Source of the DNA: Thermoflexia bacterium
Lineage (GTDB): Bacteria > Chloroflexota > Anaerolineae > B4-G1
Assembly (NCBI GenBank): GCA_011192155.1
Contig: DUEK01000012.1
Coordinates: 1-64,000, forward strand
Direction of reading: 5' to 3'
Length of the DNA: 64,000 nt
Within the stretch, counting starts at the first letter, position 1, and the number at the start of each line of letters is the position of its first letter. Below, in pieces: positions 21,191-22,759 of the stretch. A model generated the notes under the pieces. It did not search any database. It was not told the origin of the DNA and saw only the letters and a program-made list of their open reading frames with translations. Made by a program: the position numbers and the translations under genes.

Positions 21191-21426
21191 GTAACTGCTC
21201 AGGCATAACCGGGAACACAGAGATGCGCAAAGGATACACAGGGTTTCACGGAGAAGAGAGGAGAAAGTTTGCTTGTTGTACCAATTTTCAGCACAGAATA
21301 CAGTGTTCGCCTGCCTCTGGGCGGACGCCCGCCTCTGGGCGGACGCCCGCCTCTGGGCAGACGTAAGCACATATCTTCCTATCTCTCTGTGATTCTCCTG
21401 ATTCCGACGTTTTCTGTGGTTGAGCA
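21191..21426 (+). mobile_element. MITE-like element, copy C (right end truncated)
   Basis: Starts GTAACTGCTCAGGCATAACCGGGAACACAGAG like copy B; right end stops at GGTTGAGCA where another inverted-repeat element begins. Confidence 0.8.
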
Positions 21427-21559
21427 TCCTGAGTAACGCGAACAGCGTGAGCGCGTATCGAAGCCGAGTCCTGAGCCTGTCGAAGGGGGTGCGATTTTAC
21501 AACGTTTTACGGTATTCTTCGCACCCTTCGATACGGCCTTCGGCCTACTCAGGATGCTC
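21422..21559. repeat. Inverted-repeat element (GAGCATCCTGAGTA ends)
   Basis: 14-bp perfect terminal inverted repeat GAGCATCCTGAGTA/TACTCAGGATGCTC; internal GTATCGAAG / CTTCGATAC. Confidence 0.75.
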
Positions 21560-21729
21560 CGCAGACTTGAACCACAGAATCCGTCAGAACTAGGAATTTT
21601 CTACCCACCAATCGAGATTTGATCTCATTGCGCAGCGTTTCTCAACGCGCAACCATCCATCCTGTGCTGGTCGAATCTTCTTTCTCCGTTTTACCTGGGC
21701 AGGCTAATTTTATTGGTTTGTTGGGCTGG

Positions 21730-22134
21730 CTACGGTCGCATCACCGCCGCCATAATCTCTGCTCGATCCGGCATCCCGACCTGCGTCAGCATCACCTTGC
21801 CCACGCCGTCCAGCAGTACGAAAGTGGGCACGCCGCGCACGCCGTAGCGCATTGCCAACTCACCGCCCACGCTGTTCATCACGTTCAACCGCAACACCTG
21901 TGCCTGGTTCTCCAGTTCTCGTTCTAGCCCGTCCACGACGGGCTTGGCCAACAGGCACGAGCTTCAGGTGTTCGAGTAGAACTCGACCAATGTGGGCGCG
22001 CCGCCGCTTACTTGTGCATCAAAGTCCGCTGTTGAAGCCAGATCGTCGCCCGGCGTGCGCAGGAACAGATAGCCGCCCACCATCACGGCGATTATTAGAA
22101 TCACTGACCAATTCTCTTGCCAGAAACGTTTCAT
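21730..22134 (-). CDS. Membrane-anchored thioredoxin-like protein, candidate selenoprotein (UXXC) with in-frame TGA at 21964-21966
   Basis: Two same-frame ORFs: ...APTLVEFYSNT-[TGA]-SSCLLAKPVVDGLERE...GVRGVPTFVLLDG; hairpin AGCCCGTC-GTG-GACGGGCT downstream. Confidence 0.75.
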
Positions 22135-22144
22135 TGAATTCTCC

Positions 22145-22759
22145 TCACCGAGAGACCTTGTCTTGTACTGTCGCCTCAATCACCCGTACAATACCCATCG
22201 CGTGCCGTTCCACCCGCCGCACCTCGAACCCAACCTGCGCCACCGTCTGAGCCGTCTCACGGTTCAGGTGACACTCCTTGCTCCAGGCTTTCCAGGCTGG
22301 ATGCAGTGTGTCTGTCAGCCAGGCCCCCAGGCCGTTGTTGCCTCGCGTGTGTTCCAGCAGCACCAATTTTCCTTCAGGGCGCAAGACACGGCGCGCTTCC
22401 GCCAGCCCTTGCGCCGGGTCGGTGACTGAGCAGAACACAAATGAAGCCGCCACCACATCGAAACTGCCGTCGGGGAAAGGGAGTCGCTGAACGTCGCTCT
22501 GAGCCAGCGCCGTACCGTTATGCGAGTGACTCTGTGGACGGCGGGCTGCCCACGTCAACATCTCTCTGCTGGCGTCGCTGCCTGTCACGCGCACCTCTGG
22601 CCTGTAGAGCGGCAGGTTGATCCCTGTGCCGACCCCTATCTCTAGCACGTCGCCTCTGAGCAGCGGGAACACCTGCTGGCGCAACCGCCGGAACAATAGC
22701 CACTCTAGCGGCAACATCCCCAGGTCATAGATAGAGGAAAGTCCATCGAATACGCTCAT
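22145..22759 (-). CDS. Class I SAM-dependent methyltransferase
   Basis: VLEIGVGTGINLPLY; LPFPDGSFDVVAASFVFCSV. Confidence 0.85.
   Translation of the reverse strand: MSVFDGLSSIYDLGMLPLEWLLFRRLRQQVFPLLRGDVLEIGVGTGINLPLYRPEVRVTGSDASREMLTWAARRPQSHSHNGTALAQSDVQRLPFPDGSFDVVAASFVFCSVTDPAQGLAEARRVLRPEGKLVLLEHTRGNNGLGAWLTDTLHPAWKAWSKECHLNRETAQTVAQVGFEVRRVERHAMGIVRVIEATVQDKVSR

Follow-up and report, generated by a model that had tools for sequence, protein, structure and literature searches.

The gene on the minus strand at 22134-21730 of the window (the whole 64,000-nucleotide stretch of Thermoflexia bacterium DNA that was analysed) almost certainly codes for a selenoprotein: a thiol-disulfide oxidoreductase of thioredoxin fold that a single N-terminal helix anchors in the cytoplasmic membrane and in which selenocysteine 57 (Sec57) is the attacking and Cys60 the resolving residue. 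Its reading as a selenoprotein had been put forward in an initial annotation of the sequence and is supported here by a conserved in-frame TGA, a covarying bSECIS hairpin and the co-occurrence of the TGA form with the Sec machinery, from which we infer that Sec is inserted at the UGA. The features of the locus are as follows.

22145..22759, minus strand: upstream gene of a SAM-dependent methyltransferase, with a terminal TGA that serves as a genuine stop (Pfam Methyltransf_11, 9e-23; 10-nt gap)
22141..22146, minus strand: ribosome binding site GAGGAG (Shine-Dalgarno), 6 nt 5' of the ATG and overlapping the TGA stop of the upstream gene (sequence reading)
21730..22134, minus strand: gene of the predicted membrane-anchored thioredoxin-like selenoprotein, 134 aa with Sec57 (translation with TGA = U, Pfam match across the TGA, AF2 model, orthologues in 41 of 80 genomes)
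22060..22110, minus strand: codons of the N-terminal hydrophobic helix, residues 9-25, a membrane anchor of predicted N-in/C-out orientation (DSSP of the model; positive-inside rule, flank charge)
21964..21966, minus strand: in-frame TGA, the predicted Sec57 codon, position 1 of UxxC (TGA or a Cys codon in all homologues read)
21955..21957, minus strand: codon of Cys60, the predicted resolving cysteine of UxxC (column invariant in alignment A1)
21926..21944, minus strand: bSECIS hairpin with an 8-bp stem and the 3-nt loop GUG at 21936-21934 (fold; covariation, seen in 62 TGA homologues but not in 17 Cys homologues)
21826..21828, minus strand: codon of cis-Pro103 in the VPT motif (P103 invariant in alignment A1)

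Gene layout, membrane topology and electron supply

The gene is a single frame of 134 codons plus a stop, with one internal TGA at 21966-21964. In the ORF track it is split into ORFs 22179-21964 and 21951-21730 (minus strand), which share a common frame with the TGA between them, and the match to Pfam Thioredoxin (PF00085) runs unbroken across the TGA (residues 34-130, 6e-12; 45.9 bits against a gathering score of 23.5). Read through with TGA as U, the frame yields a 134-aa protein, MKRFWQENW-(membrane helix)-RTPGDD...VEFYSNT-U-SSCLLAKPVVDGLERE...GVRGVPTFVLLDG, in which U57 marks the TGA position. The single frame, the placement of the TGA at the attacking Cys to give UxxC and the intact VPT motif with its cis-Pro downstream had all been proposed in the initial annotation and hold good. 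The active site needs one correction, as it reads NT-U-SSC and the Trp of the usual WCGPC is absent. The methyltransferase gene at 22145..22759 and the selenoprotein gene are probably carried on one transcript.

Just downstream of the gene lie nested inverted repeats (26-nt arms at 21396-21595, 21-nt arms at 21422-21559) and an 18-nt unit repeated three times in direct orientation at 21308-21363; the repeats at 21308-21595 are possibly a small mobile or REP-like element.

An AF2 model was built with the family alignment and with Cys in place of Sec (pLDDT 93.5). It comprises a helix at residues 9-25 and, after it, a thioredoxin fold in which position 57 immediately precedes helix 58-73, and its top Foldseek matches in the PDB were thioredoxins. 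The N-terminal membrane helix was absent from the earlier account. Positive charge is greater on the N-terminal than on the C-terminal side of the hydrophobic helix in 76 of 80 sequences, and by the positive-inside rule the thioredoxin domain therefore probably faces outward from the cytoplasm.

A run of genes on the same strand of the window encodes TrxB, a PDO-like protein, a ferredoxin, a cupin, a CoA-binding protein, a hexapeptide-repeat protein and an AP-endonuclease. TrxB lies within 26735-25524 (minus strand), a few kb from the selenoprotein gene; its true start is probably ~75 codons into the ORF, since the Pfam match begins at ORF residue 99. The PDO-like protein (27157-26516, minus strand), named from its sequence motifs alone (CQFC and CPYC), overlaps the TrxB ORF upstream. 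At other loci, where neighbours were recognised by eye from sequence, a similar methyltransferase gene is found immediately upstream (L056, L057, L067, L069, L070, L079 and L082), or the gene stands directly behind a canonical WCGPC thioredoxin (L066, L093, L094, L097, L100, L104, L105 (with WCGPC), L108 and L119). TrxB occurs in the flank of ~15 loci, in L132 the gene directly precedes it, and in part of the Cys lineage the gene is located directly behind a TlpA/ResA-like lipoprotein gene. Neighbours of the thioredoxin, TrxB and TlpA types thus tie the gene to thiol-disulfide electron flow.

The host genome, G000, is a MAG of 178 contigs that is 83% complete. Within it no recognisable match to CcdA/DsbD (PF02683, PF13386) and no match to VKOR (PF07884) was obtained, and therefore no electron route to an extracytoplasmic domain is visible there. 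Among the genomes with a TGA-containing orthologue, 16 of 25 have a DsbD-type protein. VKOR was rejected as a partner of the Sec form because it occurs in only 1 of these 25 genomes (and not in G000), against 9 of 16 genomes with the Cys form (G000-G079); this skew toward Cys genomes is perhaps an oxygen-lifestyle signal, and it is confounded by phylogeny.

A selenoprotein of the opposite orientation (N-out/C-in), with a cytoplasmic thioredoxin domain acting as a membrane-tethered substrate of TrxB, is unlikely but deserves to be weighed. It would suit the TrxB and PDO-like genes in the same-strand run, the presence of TrxB near other members, including the one directly upstream of it, and the failure to find CcdA/DsbD in G000. 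However, the charge distribution around the helix predicts a C-out arrangement, and the TlpA/ResA-like lipoprotein encoded directly upstream in part of the Cys lineage is an extracytoplasmic protein. For the favoured outward-facing domain, the chemistry of the thioredoxin family suggests that the Sec57 selenolate would attack a disulfide or another oxidised target and that Cys60 would resolve the intermediate to give a selenenyl-sulfide. The latter may be re-reduced by a thiol donor linked to the thioredoxin/TrxB system, as the thioredoxin-system genes nearby would suggest.

The hairpin behind the TGA

The hairpin AGCCCGUC-GUG-GACGGGCU occupies 21944-21926 and has an MFE of -13.2 kcal/mol (z = -4.0). 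Its geometry is that described in the initial annotation: the stem starts 19 nt and the loop 27 nt past the UGA, and the loop opens with G-U. The GUG loop, the 8 bp, the distance of 27 nt and the energy of -13.2 kcal/mol all fall within the published bSECIS criteria (PMC13188914). An Rfam scan of the window returned tRNA-His only. Taken alone the hairpin is suggestive only, because 1.1% of the 1,805 TGA triplets of the window are followed by an equal or stabler hairpin at that position.

The comparative data make the hairpin evidence decisive. In 62 distinct TGA homologues, 92.5% of the pair cells hold standard pairs, compared to 22-43% in slid controls, and compensatory changes were found at five pairs (53 cells). 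The covariation score of this set was 0.307 as against 0.141 for shuffled alignments, and 0 of 500 shuffles reached it. In the Cys homologues (n = 17) the same columns are 49% paired and carry no excess of covariation. An uninterrupted stem of <= -7.5 kcal/mol was present in 43 of the 64 TGA forms, in 2 of 16 Cys forms and behind 6.8% of background TGA triplets; the other 21 TGA forms have no such stem at this threshold. An extra 3-bp helix proposed by RNAalifold for the TGA set (columns 11-13/18-20) showed no compensatory change and was discarded.

The pairing is also apparent at the level of codons. The wobble base of the Pro codon in the hairpin pairs with the first base of the Arg/Gly codon four positions on in 62 of 62 TGA forms (42 expected), in the combinations CCC-GGG, CCT-AGG and CCG-CGG, with two cases of CCT-GGG paired by wobble, versus 9 of 15 Cys forms (7 expected). 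The codon following Pro has C at its third position in 58 of the 62 TGA sequences, while the adjacent Val codon does so in 12; the residue following the Pro is mainly Val in TGA forms and mainly Lys in Cys forms. A SECIS element inside the coding region thus constrains the protein, the third base of Pro being matched to the Arg/Gly codon in every TGA form.

Homologues, Sec machinery and decoding of the TGA

Homologues were gathered in two sets, which overlap and are not independent: 80 genomes (that of the window and its relatives) and 80 loci from a scan of GTDB species genomes. Orthologues were identified in 41 of the 80 genomes; 25 contain a single TGA, the other 16 no stop. The initial annotation had predicted Cys or Sec at this column in homologues, and wherever DNA was read only TGA or Cys was encountered. 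This applies to the 29 homologues read from the search of the own genome and relatives, with TGA at exactly this codon or Cys, and to the GTDB scan, in which this codon is TGA at 64 loci and encodes Cys at 16. In the 64 TGA homologues, which come from many assemblies, the frames are intact on both sides of the codon.

The TGA form co-occurs with the Sec machinery. The selA or selB gene was present in 25 of 25 TGA genomes and in 2 of 16 Cys genomes (Fisher p = 3e-9, with no phylogeny correction; because related genomes are non-independent, this value is more a description than a probability). A tRNA-Sec scoring > 60 bits was found in 21 of 25 and 2 of 16, respectively. An 80-row tree calculated without the U/C column, for which few columns were available and in which many forks are unresolved, requires at least four exchanges between Sec and Cys. 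Hairpin remnants persist in isolated Cys forms within TGA clades (L077, L105), suggesting that the change from Sec to Cys is recent there. Two genomes (G006 and G023) possess the Sec machinery yet use the Cys form, and Sec is therefore dispensable.

The host genome encodes a tRNA-Sec (66.9 bits, anticodon TCA), SelB (340 bits) and SelD (371 bits; L016:1501-2433, G000:C155). Of the four components for which a search had been proposed, these three were thus recovered, while selA gave no match in this 83%-complete MAG. As selA was found in 7 of 10 genomes of the same family, its absence most likely reflects incomplete assembly. SelB with Sec-tRNA(Sec) would bind the hairpin, whose loop lies 27 nt past the UGA, and the UGA would then be decoded as Sec. 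The SelD gene of G000 has one in-frame TGA of its own in the context TSAAG-TGA-AAKRGP (GUAAK motif), which we take to be the Sec site of SelD, and this SelD would itself be a selenoprotein.

Decoding of the TGA as another amino acid (Cys, Trp or Gly), through a changed code or a suppressor, is very improbable. In its favour, homologues without the TGA have Cys at this site, and in other systems Cys is known to be inserted at Sec codons; against it stand the dedicated tRNA-Sec and SelB of the genome, the restriction of the SECIS-like hairpin to TGA forms and the use of TGA as a stop by the upstream gene. The methyltransferase stop (22147-22145) is an ordinary TGA, so that no genome-wide reassignment has taken place.

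Smaller still is the chance that a CxxC thioredoxin gene has become a pseudogene through a nonsense mutation, or that the TGA stems from a sequencing or assembly error. Mechanical ORF calling does yield two ORFs, and the genome is a MAG in which selA was not found, but 64 of 80 homologues, taken from many assemblies, have the TGA at this very codon and an intact frame on either side, the TGA is conserved between genera and between phyla, the covarying hairpin is confined to TGA forms and the TGA state follows selA/selB. A nonsense mutation or a sequencing error is therefore excluded by the conservation of the TGA, by the covariation of the bSECIS and its decay where Cys replaces Sec, and by the link between the TGA form and the Sec machinery. 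Just as negligible is the production of two proteins, an anchor peptide and a truncated C-terminal part of thioredoxin, by termination and re-initiation at TTG 21951: this would reproduce exactly the split of the ORF calls, but the second ORF lacks the first beta strand and the attacking residue, the 16 Cys homologues encode one continuous protein, and the TTG lies inside a conserved CLxAKP motif and is not kept as a start codon.

Relation to known selenoproteins and distribution

Thioredoxins with Sec (PF00085, UxxC) already appear as a family in selenoprotein inventories, for example with WP_010956703.1 (PMC13188914, PMC9312934). The window group shares with them the thioredoxin family, Sec as the first residue of UxxC and a UGA followed by a bSECIS, and differs from them in its motif NTUxxCLxxKPVVD, the lack of the WCGPC Trp and its occurrence mostly in Chloroflexota. 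The N-terminal anchor of the window group may be a further difference. The group is a membrane-anchored, Trp-less branch of this known kind of Sec-thioredoxin. The thiol:disulfide interchange selenoprotein of PF13098 (Thioredoxin_2; PMC13188914) also has UxxC, and the window protein matches PF13098 with 30.7 bits (cut-off 27), less strongly than PF00085 (45.9 bits); here, too, the anchor may be a difference.

SaoT (NF040730), the HUIPC-motif protein (NF047660) and TsoB (NF045694) have a thioredoxin-like fold with Sec in common with the window protein. The SaoT and NF047660 models gave no match to it at E <= 0.1, and the match to TsoB was weak (18 of the 805 bits needed). Across the family only generic thioredoxin-type NCBIfam models match widely, and TsoB is the one selenoprotein model that gave matches. 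The window protein falls short of every NCBIfam cut-off, including those of all NCBIfam thioredoxin models; for the classical thioredoxin equivalog TIGR01068 it scores 50.9 bits against a cut-off of 96.8. The TlpA/ResA/CcmG reductases share the single N-terminal anchor and, presumably, an extracytoplasmic thioredoxin domain. However, the fold of the window protein is closest to classical thioredoxin, and the DsbE and ResA models give weak matches or none. From the classical, soluble thioredoxins (WCxxC) it is set apart by NTUSSC and the hydrophobic N-terminal helix.

The gene group is widespread, mainly in Chloroflexota, and MAGs of Acidobacteriota and Myxococcota also carry copies. No description of it in Anaerolineae or Chloroflexota was found in the literature searched, the scope of which was papers outside subscription. 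As ORF calling cuts genes at TGA, a common Chloroflexota redox protein is probably missing or fragmentary in databases. We tentatively raise the possibility, which at present seems doubtful, that these proteins form an unnamed subfamily of membrane-anchored extracytoplasmic seleno-thioredoxins, widespread in Chloroflexota and with copies in Acidobacteriota/Myxococcota MAGs, that would belong to a reducing pathway outside the cytoplasm; in some members, that of G000 among them, the usual CcdA/DsbD carrier of this pathway would be lacking or substituted. The group amounts to a natural experiment, with the same protein present as Sec with a SECIS hairpin or as Cys without one in neighbouring lineages that have kept or lost selA/selB.

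The closest homologue (76%) is L056 (NZ_JAIFKJ010000009.1, 2215 bp), located in a MAG named Thiohalocapsa. It shares the upstream methyltransferase and the AP-endonuclease with the window and is probably a misbinned Chloroflexota contig rather than a case of gene transfer. In some genomes of the same family as the host, a second TGA-containing paralogue lies beside another thioredoxin-like gene (G009:C353:1565-1945 and G003:C400:6241-6636), and in G009 a tRNA-Sec gene (C353:525-619) is located ~1 kb from this paralogue.
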